NCBI GenBank assembly: GCA_017938245.1
Contig: JAGBBX010000033.1
Coordinates: 1 to 64,000, forward strand
DNA: 64,000 nucleotides
DNA from: Bacteroidaceae bacterium
GTDB taxonomy: Bacteria; Bacteroidota; Bacteroidia; Bacteroidales; Bacteroidaceae
Direction of reading: 5' to 3'
The notes under the pieces were generated by a model. It saw only the letters and a program-made list of their open reading frames with translations, was not told where the DNA came from and searched no databases. Positions within the stretch are counted from its first letter, which is position 1; each line of letters begins with the position of its first letter. This document shows positions 15,177-64,000 of the stretch, in pieces. Position numbers and translations under genes: made by a program.

Positions 15177-15296
15177 AAAAAAGCATAATTAATTATGCGA
15201 AGATAGGCAATCCAATAGCAAAAGTCAACAAAAAAGTTTGTTTTTAGAGCAACTTAAATGTAATTTTGCACAAGATACCTATTAGCACACAGAAAA

Positions 15297-15533
15297 ATGG
15301 CTACTAAAAAAAAGACACTTAAGGCAACCACTGCTCGCATACAACCTGTACGCCACAAACGCGTTGTATGCCTTGTCAGCGACGAGGAGAACAGAATCAT
15401 TGACGAATATCTTAAAAAACACAAGATAAGCAACAAAAGCAATTGGATGCGCGAGACACTGCTTGCATTCATATATAAAAAAATTGACGAGGATTATCCC
15501 ACCCTCTTCAACGAACACGAAATGCGAAGATAA
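15297..15533 (+). CDS. Small ribbon-helix-helix-like protein
   Basis: This is a basic 78-residue protein with the pattern RHKRVVCLVSDEENRIIDEYLKKHKISNKSNWMRETLLAFIYKKI. That is one beta strand followed by two helices, as in ribbon-helix-helix DNA-binding proteins and the MobC/DUF3408-like group. It could be a small regulator. It precedes tadA by 35 nt in the same direction. The family assignment is from pattern only. Confidence 0.55.
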   Translation: MATKKKTLKATTARIQPVRHKRVVCLVSDEENRIIDEYLKKHKISNKSNWMRETLLAFIYKKIDEDYPTLFNEHEMRR

Positions 15534-15567
15534 ACTTTACTAATAACTTCTAAACAATTAAAGAACT

Positions 15568-16008
15568 ATGGAGATTAATCAGGATATACATTATATGAAA
15601 CAGGCCATTGCCGAGGCACGTAAAGCATACGACCTTGGCGAGGTTCCGGTAGGCGCTGTTGTGGTGTGTAACGGGCGCATAATAGCACGTTGCCACAACC
15701 TTACAGAGACACTTAACGACGTTACAGCACACGCCGAGATGCAGGCTATAACAGCTGCATCATCGCACATTGGCGGAAAATATCTTAACGATTGCACACT
15801 TTATGTCAGCGTAGAGCCCTGCCCTATGTGCGCAGGCGCCATTGGTTGGGCACAACTTGGACGCCTTGTTTATGGAGCCGATGATGAGAAAAGAGGATAC
15901 CGTCGTTTGGCACCCGATGTACTTCACCCAAAGACCGAGGTTGTAAATGGTGTATGCGCCGAGGAGGCTGCCGAACTTATGAAATCATTCTTTAAGGAGA
16001 AGAGATAA
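15568..16008 (+). CDS. tadA: tRNA-specific adenosine deaminase
   Basis: This zinc-dependent deaminase converts A34 to inosine in tRNA-Arg(ACG). The HAEMQ motif (His ligand and catalytic Glu) and PCPMCAGA (two Cys ligands) are intact. Length 146 residues. It ends ahead of a very long hairpin terminator. Confidence 0.95.
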   Translation: MEINQDIHYMKQAIAEARKAYDLGEVPVGAVVVCNGRIIARCHNLTETLNDVTAHAEMQAITAASSHIGGKYLNDCTLYVSVEPCPMCAGAIGWAQLGRLVYGADDEKRGYRRLAPDVLHPKTEVVNGVCAEEAAELMKSFFKEKR

Positions 16009-16031
16009 TTAAATATCTCCAAAAACTAAAT

Positions 16032-16089
16032 AACATATATGTAGAGAGCAACAAAAAAACATTTTTTTGTTGCTCTCTACATATATGTT
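16032..16089. terminator. 28-bp perfect hairpin terminator after tadA
   Basis: The arms 16032-16059 and 16062-16089 are perfectly complementary over 28 bp with only two bases between them. The inner part is A7/T7, so a T-run sits inside the stem. Much longer than a usual terminator. Confidence 0.75.
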
Positions 16090-16166
16090 GTGTGCACAAA
16101 TTTTATCTTTTATTGTATTAAGTCCAATGACTTTTGTTATAGAAAAACACATCTACATTATTTATA

Positions 16167-16481
16167 TTATTTTACCTCTTCAAAATCGACATACTCGCCC
16201 TCGTTAGCCTCGAAAATCTTTTTACGTTTCCTTCTTTTTTGCTCTGCCTCGGGCGAATAGTGCCACCCCGAGGTGGTTGCCTCTTGCTGACGAGTGTTAT
16301 TATATTGCTGCCGGTGATATTCTGTTCTACTTGTCTGCTGACTTGTATTATAATAACTGCTGCTGTTTTTTTTACCCAGGCCTAAAAAAGAGAGTATTCC
16401 ACGTATTATGGATGCAAGAAAAGAGAGTCCTATCAAAAATAGAACTACTATAAATAAAATTATAAATAATATTATGCTCAT
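16167..16481 (-). CDS. DUF4834 family small membrane protein
   Basis: This 104-residue protein begins with a strong membrane helix (MSIILFIILFIVVLFLIGLSF) and continues with a Ser/Gln/Tyr-rich linker, a basic RRKRKKIF patch and an acidic end YVDFEEVK. This is the Bacteroidetes DUF4834 layout. I use the start at 16481 because an upstream start only adds a non-conserved stretch. Located after psd-pssA as in other Bacteroidales; function unknown. Confidence 0.7.
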   Translation of the reverse strand: MSIILFIILFIVVLFLIGLSFLASIIRGILSFLGLGKKNSSSYYNTSQQTSRTEYHRQQYNNTRQQEATTSGWHYSPEAEQKRRKRKKIFEANEGEYVDFEEVK

Positions 16482-16601
16482 ACCTTTAATATAAATGTAG
16501 TTATGAAAAGTTGAACTTTTCATTTATAATACACTAAGGGTACTGCAAAAATAGTGCCAAAGGGGTAGCAGTGCAAAAGAAATGAGACAAAATTTCTTAA
16601 A

Positions 16602-17300
16602 TCACTTTTTTAACGACAAATATACCGACAAAATGACATACCAAGCAATGATAGGCACAGCTGCAACCAAGCCAAGTGAAAGCATAGGAAGAGCCACTAT
16701 CAAGAATATATAACGACGACGGTTGGCACGCCAAGCGAGACGCTTGAACTTAAGAGAGAACATCTTTATCTCGCTGACAAGAAGATAAGACGAAAGAATT
16801 ATGAGTGCCAACATCAAAAACCAACCTGCATTCAGACTCAGCACCCAATCTCCTGCGCCTGCCACAAGTGAAGCCCAAAAAAGAGCATTGGCCGGTGTAG
16901 GCAAACCAATAAAAGATGTTGTCTGTCGTGTATCAATATTGAATTTAGCCAAACGTACTGCCGAAAATACGGCTATAAGGAATGCTGCGTAAGGCAGAAG
17001 AGCTGCAATGGGTCCAAGATAAGTAGGATACGATAGCTGATGCATAAAATTAAATACTACAGCTGCAGGAGCGAATCCAAATGTCACATCATCGGCAAGA
17101 GAGTCCATCTGAACACCCATAGGAGAGCTAACGTGCAAAAGACGGGCTGCCATTCCATCAAAAAAGTCGAAAACTGCACCTAAAACAATAAATGTAAGTG
17201 CCCATACATATTGACCTTCAAACGCCATAGTACACGCTATACAACCCGAAAACAGGTTACAGCAAGTTATTGAATTTGGTATATGCTTCTTGATGGACAT
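16602..17300 (-). CDS. pssA: CDP-diacylglycerol-serine O-phosphatidyltransferase
   Basis: This is an inner-membrane enzyme making phosphatidylserine from CDP-diacylglycerol and serine. The CDP-alcohol phosphatidyltransferase motif D-G-x2-A-R-x8-G-x3-D-x3-D is seen in FFDGMAARLLHVSSPMGVQMDSLADD. Several membrane helices follow. I chose the start at 17300 (MSIKKHIPNSITCCNLFSG). Its product is the substrate of the psd gene upstream, so the two form the phosphatidylethanolamine pathway. Confidence 0.95.
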   Translation of the reverse strand: MSIKKHIPNSITCCNLFSGCIACTMAFEGQYVWALTFIVLGAVFDFFDGMAARLLHVSSPMGVQMDSLADDVTFGFAPAAVVFNFMHQLSYPTYLGPIAALLPYAAFLIAVFSAVRLAKFNIDTRQTTSFIGLPTPANALFWASLVAGAGDWVLSLNAGWFLMLALIILSSYLLVSEIKMFSLKFKRLAWRANRRRYIFLIVALPMLSLGLVAAVPIIAWYVILSVYLSLKK

Positions 17301-42600: not shown

Positions 42601-43227
42601 TCAATGTTTTAATTTCGTTTCTGCAAATATTATCTCTAATTGCTCACGAGTGAAACGCTCCTCCTCGGGGTACAAAATTCTTTCGTGCTCAAGAATCTCG
42701 TCGATAGTCCATTTGAATTTAATGGGCTTTGCAGGTACTCCGCCTGCAACACAATAGGGTGGCAGACTTTTTGTTACGACAGAGCCGGCAGCAACTGTCG
42801 AACCTCTGCCAATCACTGCACCCGATAATAGAACCACGTTCATTCCTATCCAAACATCCTCTTCCACAACAACATCCTTATCAAATCCTTTTGGTTTCTC
42901 GGCCTCGGTAATTTCTATAAAATTTCTACCAATAATCATTGCGTGATTCCCCGTTGCAACCTTTAAACCTTGCGTGGCCACTGAATACTTTTTCATAATA
43001 AACTTTGCATTCGTTGCTAATACAACCGCATTATCCAATTTATTATTGCCGTATAGATATATATTCCTTGTATTTAAAAGAGTAAGCGGCGGATTAAGAG
43101 TTACATTATCACCTATATATCCAAATTTTTTTCTTGAGAATCCAAAATATGTTCGATAGAAAAACAACAATCCTCTTAAAAAAACATTCTCTTGTATTTT
43201 TTTAAATAATTTTTGTTTTATGTTCAT
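42601..43227 (-). CDS. Hexapeptide-repeat acetyltransferase
   Basis: This 208-residue left-handed beta-helix acyltransferase has hexapeptide repeats (about 70-180) with IEITEAEKPKGFDKDVVVEEDVWIGMNVVLLSGAVIGRGSTVAAGSVVTKSLPPYCVAGGVPAK, the CatB/WbbJ type pattern with a late GGVPAKPI motif. It probably acetylates a surface glycan. It overlaps the glycosyltransferase gene by 4 nt and is translationally coupled. Confidence 0.85.
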   Translation of the reverse strand: MNIKQKLFKKIQENVFLRGLLFFYRTYFGFSRKKFGYIGDNVTLNPPLTLLNTRNIYLYGNNKLDNAVVLATNAKFIMKKYSVATQGLKVATGNHAMIIGRNFIEITEAEKPKGFDKDVVVEEDVWIGMNVVLLSGAVIGRGSTVAAGSVVTKSLPPYCVAGGVPAKPIKFKWTIDEILEHERILYPEEERFTREQLEIIFAETKLKH

Positions 43228-44255
43228 TGCAAAACTTTTTTAATTGAGTATAGGAGTGATACAAAATAGTAATTTTTAGTAATGCAACCAAAGAAGAAGA
43301 GGCGAGGATATAATGGCAGTTTCTTCCAACAGTATTTTAAAGCAAGCTCTTTCCATATAGGCATTTTACATTTTAGCCTAAACCATTCCATTTTTTCTGT
43401 TAGCGTTTTATCGGACTGAAGAGTGTGTGATATCGTACTGCGTGAGTTGCCTATGAATAGTCTGTCGTTCCTCTCCTCGGCTAAATCCTTGCTTAGATTC
43501 CAAGAGTTTATATTCTCTTTAATATAGTTATATAGAATAAGATTCTTCTCCATCCTATCGGTGCGAATTGTACCTGTAAGCGATGCCGGATTTATTCTAT
43601 AGTGATAATACTCGCCATTATTATATGCCACAGATTTTGCATATTTCAGATAGTCGAGGTTAAAAACCACATCCTCGCTAATAAGTTCCCTTTCGCTATG
43701 GAATCTCACATTATGCTCTTGGATAATTGCCATACGATACATTGCCGTACAGGCCGAGCATTGTATTTTGTGGTCGACCTTTGCCGAGGGTTCTGATGCA
43801 ATTATATCGAGCATAAGTCCCTTAACCGCATCATCTTTGTACAGAGTTATTTTGTCGATGGGCTCTGCCGGCGCAGCCTCAGCCTCGTTGGTGAAGCGTC
43901 GGAATTTATAATAGAGTGCGTCTAACGCATTATCCTTGGCCAGATTATATAGGTGCTCGTATGTATAAAGGTCGATAAAATCGTCGCTATCGAGGAATGT
44001 TACATACTCCCCGGTGGCAATTTCCAATCCGCTGTTACGCGCAAATCCTAAACCGCCATTCTCTTTGTGTACTACTTTTATGCGACTGTCGCGTCGAGCA
44101 TACTCGTCGCACTTCTGCGGACAATTATCGGGCGATTGGTCATCGACAAGAATTATCTCAATGTCGTGCAGTGTCTGGTTTATTACCGACGACAGACATT
44201 TATCGAGATATCTCTCGACGTTATATACAGGGATTATAACTGATAGTTTTTTCAT
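43224..44255 (-). CDS. Family 2 glycosyltransferase
   Basis: This GT-A glycosyltransferase of 343 residues has KLSVIIPVYNVERYLDKCL at the N-terminus, ILVDDQSPDNCPQ, GGLGFARNSGLE, and TFLDSDDFI (DxD region) near residue 93. The C-terminal part is predicted helical. It is paired with the acetyltransferase, suggesting a surface polysaccharide or lipopolysaccharide modification; acceptor unknown. Confidence 0.85.
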   Translation of the reverse strand: MKKLSVIIPVYNVERYLDKCLSSVINQTLHDIEIILVDDQSPDNCPQKCDEYARRDSRIKVVHKENGGLGFARNSGLEIATGEYVTFLDSDDFIDLYTYEHLYNLAKDNALDALYYKFRRFTNEAEAAPAEPIDKITLYKDDAVKGLMLDIIASEPSAKVDHKIQCSACTAMYRMAIIQEHNVRFHSERELISEDVVFNLDYLKYAKSVAYNNGEYYHYRINPASLTGTIRTDRMEKNLILYNYIKENINSWNLSKDLAEERNDRLFIGNSRSTISHTLQSDKTLTEKMEWFRLKCKMPIWKELALKYCWKKLPLYPRLFFFGCITKNYYFVSLLYSIKKVLQ

Positions 44256-54505: not shown

Positions 54506-55690
54506 ATGATAGAATGTACCAAACTGATTTACTATATAGGCATCGCTATAGCGGTATATTGTATTATTCGTTATTTATGCAATGAATTTCAACATAAAAA
54601 ATCGCAATATGATAAAAACAACAACTCAAATATAAACAATCGAAGTATGGACAATGGTTTTTTCAAAAAAGGGAATGATAGCAATATGCATCGCACATCT
54701 TATCACCGGAATTATCGTGAAGAGAACTTTTCATCTCGACAACAAGCTCATAGAACAGCTATAGTTGATGAAAAGAGAACGGCTCCTTATGCTATAATCT
54801 ATCAAAGCGAATTTGATTACATAAGCCGATGCATATTAGATTATCCAAACATAGAGACCGGCGGGCAGTTGTTTGGTTTTCTCACAGAGTATGGTGTACC
54901 TGTCGTATGCTATGCTTTAGGACCCGGACCAAGATCCAACCATCAAACCGCTTTTTTTAATCAGGATACCGACTATCTGCAGATGGTATATAATGAGATA
55001 AATAGAAGATATGGTTTAAGATATATTGGTGAATGGCATTCGCATCATCAGTTAGGATTGGCCAAGCCTAGCGGACACGATGCCTCAACTATCGTTCATG
55101 GAATGGAGCGTAGTAGCTTTAGGCATTTTCTATTATGTATCGGTAATTGTGATCGCGGAAATCATTCTACTTTGAATGCCTTTACTTTTCATATTAACGA
55201 TGTATATAATTACAGGCATGCTCCGTGGGATATTATTAAAATTGAAAGTCCCTACAGACGAATTATTGATAATGAATTAGCTTCAGTACTATGTCATCCT
55301 AATACAAGAGTTGCGTCTCATGGAAGTAACTATTTCGTAAATAGAGATAGTTGTACCCCTGTTTCTGTGGTGCCTGATTATAGCAGTGAATATTGGCTTA
55401 ACTCAAAAGCCAATAATACTGTGCTCAAGCAGATTATTGATTTTGTATCTTCAGTTGGAGAGAATGCAAGTGTTAAAGCGCAATTGGATGAGCGAAAGCA
55501 TGTTCATCTTTTTGTAAATAGAGCAACAGTAAGCGAACACATTGTCTTTGGAGAAAAATTCCCAAATGAACCTCCAATAATAATATCGGATATTAGTGGT
55601 GGTTTGACAGATAATATTCAGTGGGTATATAATGGAGACATCTTTAATTCATTTAAAGAGTACTATTTACAAGTAATAAGATTGCAATAA
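54506..55690 (+). CDS. Membrane-anchored JAB/JAMM-domain protein
   Basis: This 394-residue protein has a single N-terminal helix (about residues 7-23), a low-complexity linker (30-85), and a JAB metalloprotease domain (about 95-240) with E117 (ETGGQLFG), then H178-S-H180-x8-S189-x2-D192 in GEWHSHHQLGLAKPSGHD; the spacer is one longer than the common x7. The C-terminal part (about 305-390) looks like a UBC/RWD-type fold (FPNEPPIII, then NSFKEYYLQVI), but without a Cys at the expected place. JAMM proteins trim ubiquitin-like modifiers. First gene of the island run. ATG 54506 is chosen over a TTG nine bases upstream. Confidence 0.78.
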   Translation: MIECTKLIYYIGIAIAVYCIIRYLCNEFQHKKSQYDKNNNSNINNRSMDNGFFKKGNDSNMHRTSYHRNYREENFSSRQQAHRTAIVDEKRTAPYAIIYQSEFDYISRCILDYPNIETGGQLFGFLTEYGVPVVCYALGPGPRSNHQTAFFNQDTDYLQMVYNEINRRYGLRYIGEWHSHHQLGLAKPSGHDASTIVHGMERSSFRHFLLCIGNCDRGNHSTLNAFTFHINDVYNYRHAPWDIIKIESPYRRIIDNELASVLCHPNTRVASHGSNYFVNRDSCTPVSVVPDYSSEYWLNSKANNTVLKQIIDFVSSVGENASVKAQLDERKHVHLFVNRATVSEHIVFGEKFPNEPPIIISDISGGLTDNIQWVYNGDIFNSFKEYYLQVIRLQ

Positions 55691-55711
55691 CATATTAAAA
55701 AAAATAGAAGT

Positions 55712-56137
55712 ATGACATCAGAGAGATTAAACGCAGAGAAACAGGTTTTGTCGAGATATTTGCCGCCAAATACCTATTTATTTAAAGATTTAGGAACAAG
55801 TTGCCCATACATATTGATGGCTGCAAAAACCAATCGAGGCAATGTCTACACAATAAGAATTGATTTGCGCGATTTTCCCAATTCCTTGCCTCACGCATTT
55901 GTAACTAAAATGCTGAAGACCAAAACCGGTGAGGTTATGGATAGTCCCAGCGCCTCAATGCACACATTGACATCCGAGTATGGGTATACCCGTATATGCC
56001 ATTATGGGTTCAACTCTTGGGGGCCAAAAGTGTCATTATATAAAGTCTTTATTAAATGTCGATTGTGGCTCGAAATGTATGAGCAGCATTTGAAAACCGG
56101 CAAACCAATGGATTATTATCTGAATCACCAAGCATAA
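55712..56137 (+). CDS. E2-like (UBC-fold) protein
   Basis: This 141-residue protein matches the order of E2 conjugating enzyme features: a beta meander (YTIRIDLRDFPNSLPHAFV, like the FP-x-x-PP strand), an HPN-like site MHTL (83-86), a Cys in RIC96H at the E2 catalytic position, NSWGP (103-105; like the WSP of E2s) and a C-terminal helix (IKCRLWLEMYEQHL). The Cys is the likely thioester residue. It follows the JAB gene by 21 nt. This is an assignment by pattern; remote homology needs a profile search. Confidence 0.62.
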   Translation: MTSERLNAEKQVLSRYLPPNTYLFKDLGTSCPYILMAAKTNRGNVYTIRIDLRDFPNSLPHAFVTKMLKTKTGEVMDSPSASMHTLTSEYGYTRICHYGFNSWGPKVSLYKVFIKCRLWLEMYEQHLKTGKPMDYYLNHQA

Positions 56138-56202
56138 CAATTAAGGTACAGCCAATAATCGCATTAAAGTATTATTATAAATCAATATTAAAAATCATCA
56201 TT

Positions 56203-56397
56203 ATGGCAAGTGAAAGAGAATTAAACAAAATGGCAGAAGATGTACGTGTACAAGGTGGTCAAGGAACCGGCTCAATGAACGAACTTGTTTACAATAATGA
56301 AACAGGAGAGTTCGAGACTGTTGCATCAACATCGGCAAACATTGATAGAAATGGGCTAATTGTTACAGATATGACTAAAGAAGGGTTTGCTTTTTAA
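56203..56397 (+). CDS. Small protein with TGEFE motif
   Basis: This 64-residue protein has no signal peptide or membrane helix. The centre reads ELVYNNETGEFETVAS, closely like the N-terminal motif of the small membrane proteins at 60694 and 61202. It is Gly-rich around residues 18-24 and ends in GFAF, so no diglycine tail is present. It lies between the E2-like and E1-like genes, the place where a modifier or peptide substrate would be expected. Confidence 0.6.
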   Translation: MASERELNKMAEDVRVQGGQGTGSMNELVYNNETGEFETVASTSANIDRNGLIVTDMTKEGFAF

Positions 56398-56437
56398 AGT
56401 ACTTCAAGAAAAACGTTCTCAATAAAAATCTTATTTT

Positions 56438-57691
56438 ATGAGAAAAATAATATATATTGATAGCGAAGAACTGCACTCCTTTTTACAGTCAGCGAATGAT
56501 GAAGTATTGGGCTATGGGTATGAATGGGAGAATGAGAATGTAATCCATCTGCATACAAAACCATTATTACATTCATTTGGAATAGCACATACAGTATTAT
56601 TCAGAAAAGGAGATGCGTGTGCGAATTGCGAGACTGCGCAAGATTATATTGTAGAAGTCAACAAGAATAATAGCGACATTACTGTTAATGTAATCGGTTG
56701 TGACGAATATGACATTAATTATATTCCCGCTAAGAATGAACTGTATTCCCGCAACAAGGGAATATTAGAACTAAATATCTTAGAAGGTAAAAGAGTTATG
56801 ATTGTAGGTTTGGGTAGTTTCGGTTCTCAAATCGCAATTGAGTTAGCAAAAGCCGGTGTCGGCAATTTTGCTTTATTCGATTTTGATAGAGTAGAGTTAC
56901 ATAATCTAGCTCGTCACACATCTACGACTAAAGACTTGGGCAGATTAAAGACCGATGTATTATATGAATCCATATTAGGCAAGAATCCTTATGCAAAAGT
57001 AGATTTGTTCCCCATTAATATAAATGAGCATTTGGATTTAATGGAGGAGGAGGTTGGTAAAGCGGATATTGTTATTTGTGGAACAGATAATAATGAGAGC
57101 CGTTTCAATCTTTCAACAGTTCTCGTCCACCAGCAAAAGATTGGTATATTTGGAAGAGCTGTTACCCGTGCCGAAGGCGGAGATGTATTTCGATACCGTC
57201 CAGGCGGGCCGTGTTATTGCTGCCTCATCGGTAATCAATGGTTTGGACAATCGCAAGAAGAGATTACGAGTAGAGAACAGTTACCCGCATATATGTCGCA
57301 AAGTGACGTGGATGCCAATATACAGGTTGGGCTTTCGGCTGATATAGAGCCTATATGCAATATGATGATAAAGATAACTCTGATGGAGTTGTCAAGAGGA
57401 ACAAATTCGGGTATTTCTTGTTTGGAAGATGAATTGGTTTACGACTATTATATGTGGGCTAATAGAAGGGAACGCAGACATCATAATTGGGCACCTATGC
57501 CCGGAGCAGGTTCAAAGCCTACTATTATGAGATGGTATGGAGCTCATATAAAAAGGAATGAGAACTGTAGTTTGTGTTCAAATTCAGCTCAGATGGATTT
57601 GGATGACGGTGGTGATATCATTGCCGGATATTCAGAACATCTTAAAGTGGTAGATATGTCGGATGTCTCTTTGAATGATTTAGAAGAATAA
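56438..57691 (+). CDS. ThiF/E1-like adenylating enzyme
   Basis: This 417-residue protein carries an E1-type Rossmann domain: VMIVGLGSFGSQIAIELAKAGVGNFALFDFDRVELHNLARH (residues 120-160), then VICGTDNNESR. Two CxxC pairs (C259-Y-C-C262 region and C377-SL-C380) resemble the zinc knuckle of ThiF/MoeB. The N-terminal 110 residues are an extra domain with C61 and C64 (CANC). It would adenylate a C-terminal carboxylate and could hand it on to the E2-like protein. It lies 40 nt after the tiny gene. Confidence 0.78.
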   Translation: MRKIIYIDSEELHSFLQSANDEVLGYGYEWENENVIHLHTKPLLHSFGIAHTVLFRKGDACANCETAQDYIVEVNKNNSDITVNVIGCDEYDINYIPAKNELYSRNKGILELNILEGKRVMIVGLGSFGSQIAIELAKAGVGNFALFDFDRVELHNLARHTSTTKDLGRLKTDVLYESILGKNPYAKVDLFPININEHLDLMEEEVGKADIVICGTDNNESRFNLSTVLVHQQKIGIFGRAVTRAEGGDVFRYRPGGPCYCCLIGNQWFGQSQEEITSREQLPAYMSQSDVDANIQVGLSADIEPICNMMIKITLMELSRGTNSGISCLEDELVYDYYMWANRRERRHHNWAPMPGAGSKPTIMRWYGAHIKRNENCSLCSNSAQMDLDDGGDIIAGYSEHLKVVDMSDVSLNDLEE

Positions 57692-57713
57692 CAAATTACT
57701 TGTAATAATATCT

Positions 57714-57761
57714 TAATATTGAGTCTGCTATAAAGATAAATCAATAGTAGGCTCAATATTA
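57714..57761. other. Stem-loop between E1-like and Clp_N/DnaJ genes
   Basis: The arms 57714-57731 and 57744-57761 pair over 18 bp, with two G-U wobbles, around a 12-nt loop. It may be an attenuator or processing site inside the run. A similar small stem lies at 59978-60012 (GGTTCATT with AATGAACC). Confidence 0.5.
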
Positions 57762-57809
57762 GGTTATATAAGTTCTTGATTTTTTTCAAAAATAGTATAA
57801 AATAGTTTT

Positions 57810-58892
57810 ATGAATATCAATTTTTCCAGATTCACGATTAAGTCCAGAAATGCAATAACACGCGCTTTTACACTTACAAAGCAATGTCAGTATGCTGAGA
57901 TAGAGCCACAAGTATTGATGGTCGCAATTTTGCAAGAGAGTGACGAGATGGTGTCGTACGTTTTAAATAAAATGAGGGTAGACAAGAATTCATTTTGCAG
58001 TGCCATCAGCAACTCTATGAGATTGATAAATCGTAGAATTACATCAGAGCACGACTTTTCATTATCACTGCAATTGGTCTTTCGTAAGTCTATAGAACTG
58101 TCCTCTATGGTTGGTTCTGATATGGTATCCTTAGAGCATATCTTTTGGGCATTAGGTACGGTGGATAATCCCGTAAGGACTATCTTGAATAGTCACGGAG
58201 TTACCCCCGAGATGTTAAGACTCGCTATAAATGCCTATATACATAGAGGGTCAGAGATACATCGAGCACCAGAGGTAAATAGAATTCCAGAGATACGTAG
58301 AACACCAGAGGTGCAAGATAATTTATCGTCAGATTCAGATGAATTTGAAAGTACAGTGACCTCTTTTGTTGATAAACTTAAGAACATTTTTAATTCAAAA
58401 TTTTTTATTACAATTTGTGTTATATTGGTTATACTGGGTATTATATCGGAATTTAACGATAATAGTAGCTCGAATAACAGTCAAAGTGGTAGTTCCTATA
58501 GTAATAAAGAGACAATGATTACCTGCCCTATCTGTGGTGGTTCGGGTAGATATAATTCTTTTGACATTTTTAAGTCACAGATGCCGTGTACAGGTTGTGG
58601 AGGTAGTGGCAGAGTGGCAAGTTCTCAAGCTATGGGTATTATGAAAATGCATACCCCCTCAACACCGTCCAATCAGTCGAACTCACAACGTAATAACTCA
58701 AGCAGACAATTAAAGGACTGTCCCCATTGTTTAGGAAGCGGTATCTGTAAGTCTTGTGATGGCGATGGAATTATAGAAAATAGCCCTTATGCTTATAGTC
58801 TCGACCCGATAGTATGCCCCAACTGTCTTAGCAAACACGGCGTAGGCAAAGGTAAATGTAAATGGTGTCATGGAACAGGGAAAAGAAAATAA
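57810..58892 (+). CDS. Clp_N domain - membrane helix - DnaJ-type zinc-finger fusion
   Basis: This 360-residue protein has a Clp N-terminal (double repeat) domain at about 1-145, close to that of the ClpB-like protein in the island, a short repeat region (residues 149-169, six-residue R-x-PE-type units), a membrane helix (about 198-213) and a C-terminal set of Cys motifs of DnaJ type: CPICGGSG (239), CTGCGGSG (260), CPHCLGSG (304), CKSCDGDG (313), CPNC (336), CKWCHGTG (350). No AAA domain. It may recruit clients or the ClpB-like protein to the membrane. Confidence 0.72.
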   Translation: MNINFSRFTIKSRNAITRAFTLTKQCQYAEIEPQVLMVAILQESDEMVSYVLNKMRVDKNSFCSAISNSMRLINRRITSEHDFSLSLQLVFRKSIELSSMVGSDMVSLEHIFWALGTVDNPVRTILNSHGVTPEMLRLAINAYIHRGSEIHRAPEVNRIPEIRRTPEVQDNLSSDSDEFESTVTSFVDKLKNIFNSKFFITICVILVILGIISEFNDNSSSNNSQSGSSYSNKETMITCPICGGSGRYNSFDIFKSQMPCTGCGGSGRVASSQAMGIMKMHTPSTPSNQSNSQRNNSSRQLKDCPHCLGSGICKSCDGDGIIENSPYAYSLDPIVCPNCLSKHGVGKGKCKWCHGTGKRK

Positions 58893-58910
58893 CACCAAAC
58901 AAACAATTAA

Positions 58911-59978
58911 ATGGATAATCTGCAATATTATATTGATCGAGAATTGGCATTTTTAGATACCGAGAAACTAAAAAGATTGCATCCATTAAGGCAACTCTTT
59001 TGGGAATGTACTCTTAACTGTAATTTATCTTGCCTTCATTGCGGGAGCGATTGCAAGAAAGAATCTAGAACTAACGAAATGCCATTAGCAGATTTTCTGC
59101 CTGTATTAGATATGATTAAACTAAATCAACCTAATCAGCCGACAATGGTAAATACGGTTGGAGGAGAGCCGTTAGTCAGGAGTGATATTTTGGAATGTGG
59201 TAGAGCAATAACTGATAAAGGATTTTTCTGGGGAACAGTGACGAATGGATATTTGTTAGATGCTTCTTTGATGAAGGAATTAATGAAATCGGGACTTCGC
59301 TCAATATCCATAGATATTGATGGAACAAAAGAGGAACACAACTGGCTTCGGAATAACGCAAATAGTTTTGACAGAGCATACAATGCTTTGGTTTGTATAA
59401 AAAATACCCCTCGATTGGTTTGGGATGTTATTACTTGCGTTAATAAAAGGAACTTTAATTCATTGAATGATATAAAAGAGTTACTAATAGATGCAGGTGT
59501 TAAACGGTGGAGATGTTTTACAATAACCCCAATGGGACGAGCAAGAGATAACGAGGAAATGATACTCTCTGATGAAGAGTTTAATATACTGATGGACTTT
59601 ATCGTCAAAACTCGCGAGGAGGGTAAAATTATCTTGTCATATGGATGTGAAGGTTATCTCGGACAATATGAAGGGAAAGTACGCGACTATTATTATTCTT
59701 GTAGAGCAGGACTTACTGTTGCATCTATTCTGAATGACGGAGGTATATCGGGATGTTTGAGTATTCGGAATGATTATAAACAAGGGAATATTTACACCGA
59801 TAATTTCTGGGATGTATGGAATAACCGTTTCAATTTATATCGCAATCGCGAGTGGATGAGAACAGGACAATGTGAATCTTGTGATGTATTCAAATATTGT
59901 CAAGGGAATGGAATGCATTTAAGAGATGAGAAAGGGGAATTAATGCTGTGTCATTATAGTAAGTTACAACAATCGTAG
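58911..59978 (+). CDS. Radical SAM/SPASM protein
   Basis: This 355-residue radical SAM enzyme has the cluster motif C37-NLS-C41-LH-C44, GGEP (84-87) and a C-terminal SPASM-like cysteine set (C264, C282, C321, C324, C330, C347). Such enzymes usually modify ribosomal peptides or proteins. The TIM-barrel segment CFTITPMGRARDN resembles radical SAM enzymes that modify lipoproteins or peptides in Bacteroidetes, but the substrate here is not known. It lies inside the ubiquitin-like gene run; a tiny protein of the island is the best candidate substrate. Confidence 0.82.
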   Translation: MDNLQYYIDRELAFLDTEKLKRLHPLRQLFWECTLNCNLSCLHCGSDCKKESRTNEMPLADFLPVLDMIKLNQPNQPTMVNTVGGEPLVRSDILECGRAITDKGFFWGTVTNGYLLDASLMKELMKSGLRSISIDIDGTKEEHNWLRNNANSFDRAYNALVCIKNTPRLVWDVITCVNKRNFNSLNDIKELLIDAGVKRWRCFTITPMGRARDNEEMILSDEEFNILMDFIVKTREEGKIILSYGCEGYLGQYEGKVRDYYYSCRAGLTVASILNDGGISGCLSIRNDYKQGNIYTDNFWDVWNNRFNLYRNREWMRTGQCESCDVFKYCQGNGMHLRDEKGELMLCHYSKLQQS

Positions 59979-60091
59979 GTTCATTTATCTTCTTAAATAT
60001 TATGAATGAACCAATAAGGAATATTTGTACAATCAGGTCTTAATGAATACTTAGAAGCAGAGTCGATAATTTTATTATAATATTAATATCT

Positions 60092-60676
60092 ATGGAAATT
60101 GATTATTCAAAATTTACAGACAGATCGAAAAATGCGATATCAAGAGCACTGTCTTTGACCAAGAGGTGTCAATATGCAGAAGTAGAGCCTCAAGTAATGT
60201 TGGTTGCAATATTACAAGAGAGCCGCTATATGATACCGTTTATGCTACACGAGATGAATGTTGACAAAGATTCGTTTCTTACTTCTGTAAGTAATTCTAT
60301 GAGTTCAATAAGTCATCGTATCTCTCAAGAGCATCATTTGTCACAATCTCTCAGGCTCGTCCTTCAAAAGTCGTGTGATTTGGCACAGCAAGATGGAAAT
60401 GACGACGTAGCTTTAGAGTATATATTCCAGGCATTAGGTGAGGTTAACAACCCAGTTAAGGATATTATGGTCGAGTATGGAATAAACCCGGTAAAGTTGA
60501 GACAGGTTGTCAACTTGTTTAGGATTTATAGGAATAATGATACTATGGAGGAGCTGGTCTATGATACTGATACCAATGATTTTATTATACTTGATAGGTA
60601 TGATAAGGATTTCCAGAAGATAGATACAATTAATACCGTTTATGGTCCGTATCCTGGATGGACAGAAGGGCTCTAA
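60092..60676 (+). CDS. Stand-alone Clp_N domain protein
   Basis: This 194-residue protein is almost entirely a Clp_N domain (about 1-140), highly similar in sequence and even in DNA to the N-domain of the ClpB-like gene (61522). The C-terminal tail reads EELVYDTDTNDFIIL, a weaker form of the TGEFE motif. With no ATPase part it may act as an adaptor or competitor of the ClpB-like protein. Confidence 0.72.
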   Translation: MEIDYSKFTDRSKNAISRALSLTKRCQYAEVEPQVMLVAILQESRYMIPFMLHEMNVDKDSFLTSVSNSMSSISHRISQEHHLSQSLRLVLQKSCDLAQQDGNDDVALEYIFQALGEVNNPVKDIMVEYGINPVKLRQVVNLFRIYRNNDTMEELVYDTDTNDFIILDRYDKDFQKIDTINTVYGPYPGWTEGL

Positions 60677-60693
60677 TCATAAAAATATTTATT

Positions 60694-60957
60694 ATGGCAA
60701 TCAAATATAATGAAAGAACAGGGGAGTTTGAGGAAGTTTCTACCCAAAGCAATAATTATGGACATAAAAAAGAAACAAACACATCTGATAAGAAAAAAGG
60801 TATTAGCGGTCCAATAAAGAGTCTGCTGATAACCTTATTAGTATGTAATCTGTTATTCGGTTTAATACTTGGTGCATATAGTGATGACGGGCTCTTGATG
60901 GGAGTGCTTGGATCTAGTTTTCTAGGATTGTATATCTGGTTTTTTTATGTAAGATAG
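60694..60957 (+). CDS. Small membrane protein with TGEFE motif (1)
   Basis: This 87-residue protein starts MAIKYNERTGEFEEVSTQ, then a hydrophilic charged stretch and two hydrophobic segments (about 44-58 and 68-84). I place the start at 60694, not 36 nt upstream, because the paralogue at 61202 starts the same way. The shared N-terminal motif suggests a common binding partner. Confidence 0.65.
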   Translation: MAIKYNERTGEFEEVSTQSNNYGHKKETNTSDKKKGISGPIKSLLITLLVCNLLFGLILGAYSDDGLLMGVLGSSFLGLYIWFFYVR

Positions 60958-61002
60958 CTTACCTATTTTATAAATAATATAATTTTTTAAAATATATAAT
61001 TT

Positions 61003-61167
61003 ATGGGTGCTTTTGTGAAATTAATAGCTTTGTTGCTATTTATGAATTTTTTCGGTTTTTTGACAACCGAGGGGTATGTTGAATCTTCTGCCGATATTAT
61101 ATTATGTAATATTATTGCAGTAGGTGGTTGGATATATATCATTGTCAAAGGTGACAACGAATCGTAA
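61003..61167 (+). CDS. 54-residue small membrane protein
   Basis: This tiny gene, between two small membrane-protein genes, encodes two hydrophobic segments (MGAFVKLIALLLFMNFFGF and ADIILCNIIAVGGWIYIIV) and ends in DNES. It lacks the TGEFE motif. Supported by tight spacing and reading frame; no known family. Confidence 0.5.
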   Translation: MGAFVKLIALLLFMNFFGFLTTEGYVESSADIILCNIIAVGGWIYIIVKGDNES

Positions 61168-61201
61168 TGTTTGCAAGGAAAATATTAAAAAAGCAATAAT
61201 T

Positions 61202-61477
61202 ATGGCAATCAAATATAATGAAAGAACGGGGGAGTTCGAGGAAGACTCCTCGCAAAAGTCTAAAGATAAAATAAGTAACCCCAATAGTCAGAATTCAGAA
61301 TCTGAAAGCCTATCTGAACGTATTATGTGGCAAATTGTAAAATTTGTGGCCCCTATAGTTTTGGGTTGCGTATATGCATATTTTAACTATAAAGGTGAAA
61401 GTTTCTGGGGGTCAGTAGATTTTTATTGCGGTATCATCACTGGTGTGATTGTGTGGTTGATGTTTAAATTTACATAA
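61202..61477 (+). CDS. Small membrane protein with TGEFE motif (2)
   Basis: This 91-residue protein starts MAIKYNERTGEFEEDSSQ, nearly identical at the start to the protein at 60694, followed by a polar stretch and two hydrophobic segments (about 48-60 and 72-88, with FVAPIVLGCVYAYF and IITGVIVWLMF). I chose the start at 61202 over one 78 nt upstream by comparison with the paralogue. Confidence 0.65.
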   Translation: MAIKYNERTGEFEEDSSQKSKDKISNPNSQNSESESLSERIMWQIVKFVAPIVLGCVYAYFNYKGESFWGSVDFYCGIITGVIVWLMFKFT

Positions 61478-61521
61478 AACCAGTCAAAAAAAATAGTATT
61501 GATAACTTATTAATTTTTCTA

Positions 61522-64000
61522 ATGGAAGTCGATTATTCAAAATTTACAAATAAATCGAGAGATGCTATATCTAAAGCTTTCTCTTTAACCAAACAATGCC
61601 AATACGCAGAAGTGGAACCTCAACTTATGATGGTTGCGATATTGCAGGAAGGTAATGAAATGATACCATTTATGCTAAACAATATGAATGTTGATAAAGG
61701 TTCATTTCTTACTTCTGTAAGTAATTCTATGAGGATGATAAGGCATCGTGCCTCAGAAGAACATCATTTGTCACAGTCTCTTCAGCAAGTCTTACAAAAG
61801 TCGTGTGATTTGGCATTGTCAGATGGTAATAATGTAGTTGCCTTAGAGTATATATTCTGGGCATTAGGTGAGGTTGATAACCCCATTAAAGATATTATGA
61901 CTGAGTTTGGAATAAACTCGGAGAAGTTGAGGCAAGCAGTTCATCTGTTTAGAAGCGGAACACCGGAATCGCCTTCAATTAACAATGTAGACGAGGAGAA
62001 CATCCCAAATCTGTATAAGTATGGCAGAAATTTAATCCTTGCAGCCGAAAATGGAGAAATAGAGGCTGTAATAGGAAGAGATGAAGAAATAAGACGCATT
62101 CTTCAAATTATATCCAGAAAGACAAAAAACAATCCGGTGCTTATAGGTGAACCTGGAACCGGAAAAACTGCAATAGTAGAAGGACTAGCCAATAGAATTA
62201 CACGCGGTGAAGTTCCACAAGAACTTAAGGAACTTAAGCTTTTTAGTGTAGATATAGCGTCTCTTATTGCAGGAGCCCAAATGCAAGGAGAATTTGAAAA
62301 TAGGTTGAAGAAAGTCATAGAAGAGGCTAAATCTGACCCGAATGTAATACTATTCATAGATGAGATACACTTATTAATGGGAGCTGGCAAATCCGGTGGA
62401 GCGATGGATGCAGCCAACATTCTAAAGCCAGAGATGGCACGAGGTGTATTGAAGATAATAGGTGCAACAACGGTTGATGAATATAGACAATATATCGAGA
62501 AGGATAAAGCTTTTGAACGTCGTTTCCAAAAGGTTAATGTAGAAGAGCCCGATATAGCCTCAGCAGTTTCTATAATGAGAGGTATTAAGAGCAGATTCGA
62601 GAATCATCATCATATTAAGATTCTAGATGAGGCTATTGTTGCAGCAGTAAATTTGTCGCATAGATACATTACAAATCGTTTCTTGCCGGATAAGGCGATA
62701 GACCTTGTAGATGAGGCTGCTTCAAATATGAGAATAAACCAATCTTCCTTACCTCATGATATTGAACTTTTAAAAGCTCAAATCAGATATAAAGAAGTTG
62801 AGCGGGAATCACTCATTCAAGATGGTTCAAGTACATCACTGCCTAATATACAGGAACTTGAGCAGGAGATTGAAAATCTAAAGGAGCAAGAAAATGTTCT
62901 TTATGCAAAATGGCAAAATGAGAGAAGAGCACTTGACATATTACAAGAATTAATGTCACAGCTCCAAAGATTATCGATTAATCGTGAAACTGCCGAACTA
63001 CAGGGTCGTTATGCTGATGCAGTTGAACTTCAGCGACAAGAGACTGCAATTAAAACACAAATTGATAGCATTACAACTGAAATTAACAGTAATTCTTCTT
63101 CATTATTAAAAACAGCGCTAGATGAAAAGGATATTATGAAGGTTGTTACTGTCTGGACTGGAATTCCAATGACCAATATGACTGAAGATGACAATGAGAA
63201 ATTACTACATATTGAAGAAGCACTGCACGCTTCAGTAGTAGGTCAGGAGTCTGCGGTAAAAGCTGTATCAGATGCAATCAGAAGGAATCGTTTGGGACTA
63301 AATGACCCAGGAAAGCCTATTGGCACTTTTCTATTTCTAGGAACAACAGGAGTTGGAAAAACAGAGCTATGTAAAGCATTGGCCGGATATTTATTTAATA
63401 GCCGAGATATGATAATCAGGATTGATATGAGCGAATATCAGCAAGAGCATTCAGTATCACGTCTATTTGGTGCTCCTCCCGGCTATGTAGGCTATGATGC
63501 AGGTGGGCAGTTGACCGAGGCTGTGAGAAGAAAGCCGTATAGTGTCGTACTTTTTGATGAAATTGAAAAAGCACATCCAAAAGTGTTTGAGACCCTGCTG
63601 CAGGTTCTCGATGATGGACGTATGACAGATGGACAAGGAAGGGTCATAGATTTCAAAAATACAATTATTGTTATGACTTCCAATATGGGACAGGATATCA
63701 TAAATCAGAACTTAATAGGTTGTTCTATTAACCAAGAGAAGATTAGTGCAACATCCAATTTGGTGATTATGCAACTGAAACAGCGTGTGGCACCTGAATT
63801 TTTGAATAGGATAGATGACATTATAATGTTTCTACCTCTTACACCTGAGGATATTAAACATATCGTAACAATCCAATTGTCGGCCTTTAAAGATAAGTTA
63901 AACAAGAATAATATTAATATAAATTTTGATGATTCAGTTATAGCATTACTATCCATTAAAGGCTATAAGCCTGAATATGGAGGAAGACCTGTCAAAAGAG
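61522..64000 (+). CDS. ClpB-like AAA+ disaggregase (partial, runs off window)
   Basis: This frame of 826 residues to the window end has a Clp_N domain (1-145), D1 AAA+ (Walker A GEPGTGKT 209-216, Walker B VILFIDE 275-281, Arg fingers R333-R334), a ClpB-type coiled-coil middle domain (about 420-520) and D2 (Walker A GTTGVGKT near 607, GAPPGYVGYD near 652, Walker B VVLFDE near 675). The D1 pore loop reads AGAQMQGEFE where ClpB has an aromatic residue (KYRG). No ClpP-binding loop is evident. It is the unfoldase of the island. The true end lies beyond the window. Confidence 0.88.
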   Translation, partial: MEVDYSKFTNKSRDAISKAFSLTKQCQYAEVEPQLMMVAILQEGNEMIPFMLNNMNVDKGSFLTSVSNSMRMIRHRASEEHHLSQSLQQVLQKSCDLALSDGNNVVALEYIFWALGEVDNPIKDIMTEFGINSEKLRQAVHLFRSGTPESPSINNVDEENIPNLYKYGRNLILAAENGEIEAVIGRDEEIRRILQIISRKTKNNPVLIGEPGTGKTAIVEGLANRITRGEVPQELKELKLFSVDIASLIAGAQMQGEFENRLKKVIEEAKSDPNVILFIDEIHLLMGAGKSGGAMDAANILKPEMARGVLKIIGATTVDEYRQYIEKDKAFERRFQKVNVEEPDIASAVSIMRGIKSRFENHHHIKILDEAIVAAVNLSHRYITNRFLPDKAIDLVDEAASNMRINQSSLPHDIELLKAQIRYKEVERESLIQDGSSTSLPNIQELEQEIENLKEQENVLYAKWQNERRALDILQELMSQLQRLSINRETAELQGRYADAVELQRQETAIKTQIDSITTEINSNSSSLLKTALDEKDIMKVVTVWTGIPMTNMTEDDNEKLLHIEEALHASVVGQESAVKAVSDAIRRNRLGLNDPGKPIGTFLFLGTTGVGKTELCKALAGYLFNSRDMIIRIDMSEYQQEHSVSRLFGAPPGYVGYDAGGQLTEAVRRKPYSVVLFDEIEKAHPKVFETLLQVLDDGRMTDGQGRVIDFKNTIIVMTSNMGQDIINQNLIGCSINQEKISATSNLVIMQLKQRVAPEFLNRIDDIIMFLPLTPEDIKHIVTIQLSAFKDKLNKNNININFDDSVIALLSIKGYKPEYGGRPVKR

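Follow-up and report, generated by a model that had tools for sequence, protein, structure and literature searches.

Gene content of the block and its predicted conjugation enzymes

The DNA analysed here, positions 1–64000 of the 75.7-kb contig JAGBBX010000033.1 (the window), belongs to a draft genome of a Bacteroidaceae bacterium (2.70 Mb, 85.95% complete), and its 3′ part carries a block of same-strand genes in which ubiquitin-type conjugation enzymes stand together with a ClpB-class unfoldase. The block starts at 54506 and continues to contig position 64495, with intergenic gaps of 14–118 bp. It encodes, in this order and all on the + strand, a JAMM protease, an E2-like protein, a 64-aa protein (s64), an E1-like protein, a Clp_N-transmembrane-DnaJ-finger fusion, a radical SAM enzyme, a lone Clp_N protein, three small membrane proteins, ClpB, and a 108-aa hydrophobic protein, which is followed by panD/panC. 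The block genes have GC contents of 0.296–0.400, compared with a mean of 0.464 (sd 0.034) for the 26 open reading frames (ORFs) of at least 250 aa in positions 1–54000, and the GC skew becomes positive at about 54 kb.

The block was compared across 25 loci, namely the window, L037–L051, L053, L075–L078, L080, and L083–L085. L083 and L085 are distant members, and L078 has 1 kb after E1. The loci are mostly from Bacteroidota, Fibrobacterota, and Kiritimatiellota, and most come from draft metagenome assemblies.

The JAMM/JAB protease (54506–55690, +; 394 aa) has a hydrophobic N-terminal stretch and matched PF14464 (E=5e-4) and the PADLOC JAB model (4e-14). Its metal site (Glu, HxH, Ser, and Asp) was unchanged in all 21 aligned sequences, which places it in the JAMM/JAB family. 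The C-terminal region of about 100 aa gave weak signals (VPS37A, E=0.11; hhalign against E2, probability 3.5%) and is tentatively regarded as RWD-like, possibly related to E2.

In the E2-like enzyme (55712–56137, +; 141 aa), residues H84, C96, and W103 were unchanged in the 23 aligned loci, with the conserved His upstream of the catalytic Cys in the style of classical E2s. The top match of its predicted structure was a CBASS (cyclic oligonucleotide-based antiphage signalling system) CdnG-E2 complex, matches within 1 Z being tied. Foldseek alone returned nothing at E≤0.001 for this model (best 0.016), the E2 profile had no significant match in the PDB, and single members matched Pfam weakly (DUF7665 in 2 of 22, best 0.001; RWD in 1 of 22, 0.006). 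As judged from the model, the protein has an E2/UBC fold with the catalytic Cys in conserved surroundings. The E1-like (ThiF-type) adenylating enzyme (56438–57691, +; 417 aa) carries an extra N-domain of about 108 aa. The Gly-rich loop, Asp, Arg, and Lys of the adenylation domain and the paired CxxC motifs were present, as in members of the E1/ThiF family, and the protein lies near MccB as well as MoeB. The E1 fold is likewise supported by modelling. The E2-like and JAB assignments made in the original prediction, which was based on the letters of the window, thus held, E2 (and E1) being backed by structure prediction and JAMM by its invariant metal-site residues.

The small protein between E2 and E1 and its hairpin

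A gene absent from the gene list of the original prediction lies between E2 and E1 (56203–56397, +). Based on BLAST and alignment, its product s64, the candidate tag, consists of an N-terminal segment, a Gly-rich linker, the hairpin LVYNNETGEFETV, and the tail VTDMTKEGFA-F. When used as a lone BLAST query, s64 found a match in the E2-E1 position of 12 other loci at E<1e-3 (L037–L041, L043, L045, L047–L049, L051, and L080). In 23 of the 25 loci, a candidate small protein was identified that is either encoded in the E2-E1 interval or joined to the E1 protein, 4 of these assignments being by position only. These proteins have an N-terminal segment, which in many members leads into a Gly-rich linker; then come the stretch LVYNxxTGEFExV, of which YNxxTGEFE is a probable beta-hairpin, and the tail TxMTxxGFA. 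Alignment of 17 sequences showed no conserved Cys. A profile built from 17 relatives found the non-member L043 at 4e-21 and L046 weakly (0.002); over 23 genomes, the sole further match below 1e-4 was a degenerate second copy in L039 (1.4e-6).

Profile and family searches of s64 gave no convincing match to known families. Designed SAKe proteins, found in the PDB profile search (7pvp, E=1.4e-8, about 22 residues), were rejected as relatives, and this match was taken as a chance likeness of repeated beta-hairpins. Among the operon proteins, no match to Ubl (beta-grasp) families was obtained, s64 itself being modelled solely within the L042 protein at low confidence. The original prediction had pointed to the region just downstream as the place to look for a diglycine-tailed modifier. 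None was found there, ClpB being followed by the 108-aa hydrophobic protein and panD; the candidate modifier, with its GFA tail, is instead the product of the gene in the E2-E1 interval.

The tail G[FY]A was present in 17 of the 23 candidates. GFA forms the extreme C-terminus in L038–L041, is followed by 1–5 residues in ten other loci and by 47 residues comprising a second hairpin module in L043, and directly precedes E1 itself in L042 and L084. This arrangement looks like a processing site for the trimming or release of a precursor, by analogy with ubiquitin precursors. A fixed Ala end for s64 was considered and dropped, since the tail survey of the 23 candidates showed that Ala is not universal. 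The Fibrobacter-type small proteins (L048:9777-10004, L051:9765-10013, and L080:12561-12830) have an extra GFA near the N-terminus besides the C-terminal one. The small hairpin protein is duplicated, in degenerate or tandem form, at L039:3027-3200 and L043:9690-10001, and the second module of L043 ends with Gly-Gly.

Accessory proteins were observed to carry the same hairpin near the N-terminus. Written MA(x)(x)YNxxTGxFE, it occurs both in small membrane proteins and in proteins of 336–355 aa. The latter had weak Cadherin-like/PKD matches in L041 and none in L037. In the window, the tag MAIKYNERTGEFEE is found at the N-terminus of a small two-pass membrane protein (60691–60957, +) and of a further small membrane protein (61199–61477, +); the third small membrane protein (54 aa; 61003–61167, +) lies between them. 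The C-terminal part of the lone Clp_N protein contains a degenerate stretch, MEELVYDTDTNDF, that resembles s64 by eye, and an SH3 protein in L044 has an N-terminal hairpin of a different style. Counting ORFs of at least 50 aa, the motif was present near the N-terminus in 32 of 801 ORFs inside the operon spans versus 1 of 1575 outside, with a motif derived from these proteins, the small proteins included among the 32, and spans set by eye. Within loci, the likeness of the s64 hairpin to the accessory hairpin was above that in 20,000 permutations (p=0.0003 for 11 loci, 5e-5 for 9 loci, and 0.005 for 7 type-1 loci); this result is given little weight because the stretches were picked by eye and shared ancestry was uncontrolled. 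Three further observations concern tagged proteins or their surroundings. In a same-genus genome (L054:1-1531), a shrunken E1 remnant lies next to a hairpin-tagged protein (MALVFNPRTGMFEE), as a decayed copy of the system. Near the module in L048 (15374-17377), Pfam identified a fusion of dynamin with a sulfatase-modifying, FGE-type domain, and in L050 (1736-3232) a hairpin-tagged protein near the module has a C-terminus that is FGE-like by eye.

The ClpB-class unfoldase, neighbouring genes, and insertion of the block

The ClpB-class Hsp100 (868 aa) is encoded from 61522 to the window end at 64000 (+), with its stop at contig position 64128. Clp_N, two AAA+ rings, an M-domain, and both Walker A/B pairs were intact, an architecture that places it in the ClpB class of Hsp100 proteins. 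It scored 1020.9 bits against the TIGR03346 equivalog, below the cut-off of 1232.1, and is thus ClpB-class and divergent. The link between the E1-E2-JAB set and a ClpB-class protein, the core of the original prediction, is real and recurs elsewhere: ClpB lies downstream of E1 in 13 of the 25 loci (the window, L037, L039–L047, L051, and L053). In the 12 outside the window, no more than about 50 bp separate the start of ClpB from E1 or from a small tagged gene; the window ClpB, which comes after the extra genes, is 3.8 kb away from E1. Walker A and B motifs were kept in all 13 proteins, and the M-domain was present in 10 and absent from 3.

Docking to ClpP is associated with a hydrophobic-G-F/L tripeptide. 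None of the 13 ClpB proteins has it at the ClpP-loop position (IGC in the window, RGL in L045 and L047), and a ClpC-like protein of the host carries it there. The host genome also has its own ClpB, 49% identical to that of the operon. Because of this second copy and the lack of a recognisable ClpP tripeptide, the operon ClpB is considered a second, divergent, and probably non-proteolytic unfoldase. The lone Clp_N protein (60092–60676, +; 194 aa; Pfam Clp_N 1e-4) shares 74% identity over its first 145 aa with the N-domain of this ClpB and, on that identity, is a local duplication of it.

Two other genes of the window, which the original prediction had treated as parts of the system, did not hold as such. 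The Clp_N-transmembrane-DnaJ-type zinc finger fusion (57810–58892, +; 360 aa; Clp_N 6e-8, DnaJ_CXXCXGXG 4e-8; hydrophobic stretch 190–208) was not seen in the other loci of the 25 and, on this distribution, is not core; in L039, a CxxC-rich protein encoded on its own weakly matched the DnaJ-finger part. The radical SAM/SPASM protein (58911–59978, +) belongs to the separately defined family TIGR04133 (500.6 bits; cut-off 425). BLAST over the 25 loci gave one other locus with a close relative, L049, where the gene is found next to lipoprotein-like ORFs, about 4.7 kb downstream of E1; the relative in L046 was 27% identical only. PADLOC viperin models matched the window protein at 6e-20, which was taken as superfamily likeness. 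The enzyme is a probable passenger, not core. The window gene is without a lipoprotein partner, and the L049 relative (15260-17047) is preceded by two lipoprotein-like ORFs; this suggests that the TIGR04133 radical SAM gene is a separate cassette sometimes landing near this operon.

Genes known from phage defence adjoin the enzymes in some related loci. In L075, which is without ClpB, they lie directly before PtuA-like (2e-66) and PtuB-like (5e-6) genes, a Septu-like pair. In L037, ClpB is followed by DUF4407 and LeoA-type dynamin genes (LeoA 2e-123), and in L048 and L080 the enzymes precede dynamin-like GTPases, with no ClpB. On the Bradyrhizobium plasmid of L083, also with no ClpB, a SMODS nucleotidyltransferase piece (4e-7), a SAVED/endonuclease CBASS effector (1e-243), and a TIR-domain gene follow. 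From these neighbours, defence is favoured over quality control. The JAB, E2, and E1 genes of this CBASS-like context are separate (L083:7697-14067), and its CD-NTase-like gene seems to span two frames and ends with FGA. In L085 (8150-18645), a distant JAB/E2/E1 set has a HerA-like ATPase downstream, together with several proteins of no recognised kind, and no small hairpin protein was seen between E2 and E1.

The position of panD was examined in relatives. It was present in 14 of 15 genus genomes searched. Among the 13 other than the window's own, panD adjoins the hexosaminidase gene in 5 (L090, L091, L092, L094, and L095), and in 3 (L096, L097, and L099) its neighbour is the biotin-carrier gene from that same block; the remaining 5 differ or end. 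In view of these arrangements, the preferred reading of the block is an insertion, about 10.8 kb long, that separates hexosaminidase from panD. The E2 profile, counting the window's own genome, was found in 2 of 44 genomes of the genus, 4 of 393 of the order, and 2 of 395 of the class, the latter two counts possibly being low since only 10 first-look candidates were scored for many genomes. In other phyla, query genomes included, it was found in 3 of 150 genomes for the phylum of a Fibrobacter locus, in 1 of 247 for that of the Treponema locus, and in 3 of 240 for that of a Kiritimatiellae locus. In the E1 tree, one supported clade mixes Kiritimatiellota and Fibrobacterota with Bacteroidota, Treponema groups with two genomes of the window's order, and the same-genus copy L053 is not the nearest relative of the window E1. 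Horizontal transfer, which had been suggested from composition, is supported by the rarity within the genus, the uninterrupted site in relatives, and the mixing of phyla. Searches of viral contigs with E1 or with the E2 profile gave no relative and those of phage records no E2 match, and three E2 queries against plasmids returned nothing but the same pair of Bradyrhizobium records. Apart from the block, a second A+T-rich patch was noticed in the window at 42601-44255, with an ORF that is glycosyltransferase-like by eye and a neighbouring ORF.

A possible tagging pathway and its alternatives

Type II CBASS is the closest known system for comparison. Its E2-E1 protein Cap2 conjugates cGAS, which is without a beta-grasp fold, via a C-terminal Gly or Ala (PMC10097602). 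The window operon resembles Cap2 and Cap3 (JAB) in having E1, E2, and JAMM, the Gly- or Ala-terminal, non-beta-grasp protein conjugated there has a candidate counterpart here in s64, and the distant L083 adjoins a CD-NTase-like gene and a SAVED nuclease. It differs in that E1, E2, and JAB are encoded by separate genes and in that it includes a 64-aa hairpin-tail protein of its own, a ClpB-class Hsp100, and tagged membrane proteins, and no nucleotidyltransferase match, the mark of a CBASS operon, was found in the 10 window ORFs scanned. In the Bil system (BilABCD), the beta-grasp protein has two domains and the E2 is of the CEHH type (PMC11354881). The window operon, unlike Bil and Bub, has no recognised beta-grasp protein, and the conserved His of its E2 lies upstream of the Cys. 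PMC13373217 states that protection against phage has yet to be demonstrated for Bub operons, and the same caution holds for the present operon. Clusters of E1, E2, and JAB with sporadic distribution were classified as 6a–6e by Iyer, Burroughs and Aravind in 2006; according to PMC1779556, class 6e has RWD-like inactive E2 domains, class 6d has a small protein with a C-terminal glycine and a predicted beta-grasp fold, and a ClpS link is given for class 4d. The window shares the gene cluster and the sporadic distribution with 6a–6e; it differs in that section 14 of PMC1779556 gives no Hsp100 partner and in that its small protein has a hairpin tail and is not of the beta-grasp type of 6d. In literature searches of open-licence PMC papers, no ClpB-linked E1-E2-JAB operon came up. 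Pupylation combines a small non-beta-grasp tag with an AAA+ unfoldase; the Pup ligase is not an E1/E2 enzyme, and a protease acts downstream in that pathway.

Our reading, tentative and at a little less than even odds, is that the block is a horizontally acquired, defence-type conjugation operon. In this reading, its tag is probably a short peptide outside the beta-grasp fold, and the unfoldase to which it is coupled is probably non-proteolytic. Given Cap2-cGAS conjugation in CBASS without a beta-grasp fold and the defence-gene neighbours, we infer that s64 plays the part of the cGAS tail. JAMM would trim s64 after the GFA motif; E1 would adenylate the exposed C-terminal Ala and the peptide would be handed to Cys96 of E2; and E2 would join it to target proteins, by analogy with the Gly/Ala conjugation of cGAS. 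The hairpin on s64, on the small membrane proteins, and on larger accessory proteins elsewhere may be a shared docking tag that collects tagged targets and partners. ClpB would thread or disaggregate the tagged assemblies with no degradation, and JAMM would reverse the tag. Because Septu-like, dynamin-like, or CBASS genes adjoin the same enzymes elsewhere, ClpB is the probable effector arm and phage the probable trigger. The fuller scheme is a tag-and-unfold pathway in which an Ala-terminated, non-beta-grasp hairpin peptide is conjugated by a eukaryote-like E1-E2 pair, removed by JAMM, and recognised by a ClpB-class unfoldase of the operon's own by way of the hairpin shared with membrane partners; such a counterpart of ubiquitin-p97/Cdc48, with a new kind of modifier and exchangeable antiviral effectors, appears doubtful at present.

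Several points weigh against this interpretation. No ClpB was seen downstream in 12 of the 25 loci. The PADLOC matches of the window operon beyond the conjugation enzymes were of superfamily type (ClpB to PDC-M37B, 4e-39, and to DolB, 1e-30), so that no accepted effector was recognised. For s64, 17 of the 18 strong matches come from sequences that went into the profile, the profile misses the candidates of L050, L053, L076, and L077 (ORFs of 59–69 aa placed by position alone), and LVYNxxTGEFExV was modelled as a hairpin at low confidence, as part of the L042 fusion. The tail is GFF in 2 of 23 candidates and neither GFF nor G[FY]A in 4 (again L050, L053, L076, and L077). The conjugates, the cleavage, and the phage phenotype that the scheme predicts have so far not been observed, the system being known here from sequence and predicted structure. 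Finally, the fusion of s64 to the N-terminus of E1 in L042 and L084 could mean that it is an E1 subunit and no free tag, and the L084 E1 is also without the N-domain.

These fusions lead to the alternative that s64, as a split-off piece of the E1 N-terminus, serves E1 as an adaptor or activator and is not itself conjugated, and that E1 and E2 conjugate another operon protein, as Cap2 does with cGAS. The Bradyrhizobium E1 (L083) has, by eye, a similar N-terminal extension next to the CD-NTase-like gene ending with FGA, and the tail residue varies among divergent loci. However, GFA is kept at the joint in both fusions and in L043 stands between two hairpin modules, as for a processing site, and inspection by eye revealed no further protein of the operon whose C-terminus stays the same from locus to locus; we regard the adaptor role as unlikely. 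A quality-control or envelope-stress pathway, in which damaged proteins are tagged for ClpB-DnaK disaggregation with no phage role, would fit the Hsp100 M-domain (10 of 13), the ATPase motifs (13 of 13), and the DnaJ-type zinc finger and extra Clp_N proteins of the window. It is less probable still, since the genome already holds ClpB and a ClpC-like protein, the presence is sporadic in genus, order, and class, and the enzyme module without ClpB is found beside known defence genes (L075 and L083).

Maturation of a peptide natural product, as for microcin C, would have E1 modify the C-terminus of a small peptide, the radical SAM enzyme alter it, and the membrane proteins provide immunity or export. 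The proximity of E1 to MccB and the radical SAM/SPASM enzyme in the window accord with it, but E2 keeps its active-site residues in 23 of 23 aligned loci, no transporter was present among the ten window ORFs scanned, a close radical SAM gene occurs in 2 of 25 loci (one at 4.7 kb), and s64 is without conserved Cys, which makes such a role highly improbable. Chance neighbourhood in an accretion island, with the conjugation module and ClpB acting separately, is hardly to be expected: the loci without ClpB, the window genes that are not conserved, and the intervening genes before the window ClpB speak for it, and are set against 12 other ClpB loci from three phyla in which ClpB is on the same strand and starts within about 50 bp of E1 or a hairpin-tagged gene, and against the hairpin common to several parts of the system.

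Under the conjugation reading, if s64 is the tag, ubiquitin-style conjugation would need no beta-grasp modifier even where E1, E2, and JAMM are separate proteins, and bacteria would have coupled tagging to an Hsp100 unfoldase as eukaryotes have coupled ubiquitin to p97. The hairpin common to the candidate tag and the accessory proteins is a simple handle for finding further members and partners, and the exchangeable neighbours (ClpB, dynamin-like, Septu-like, and CBASS genes) would represent a modular antiviral design that is directly testable.

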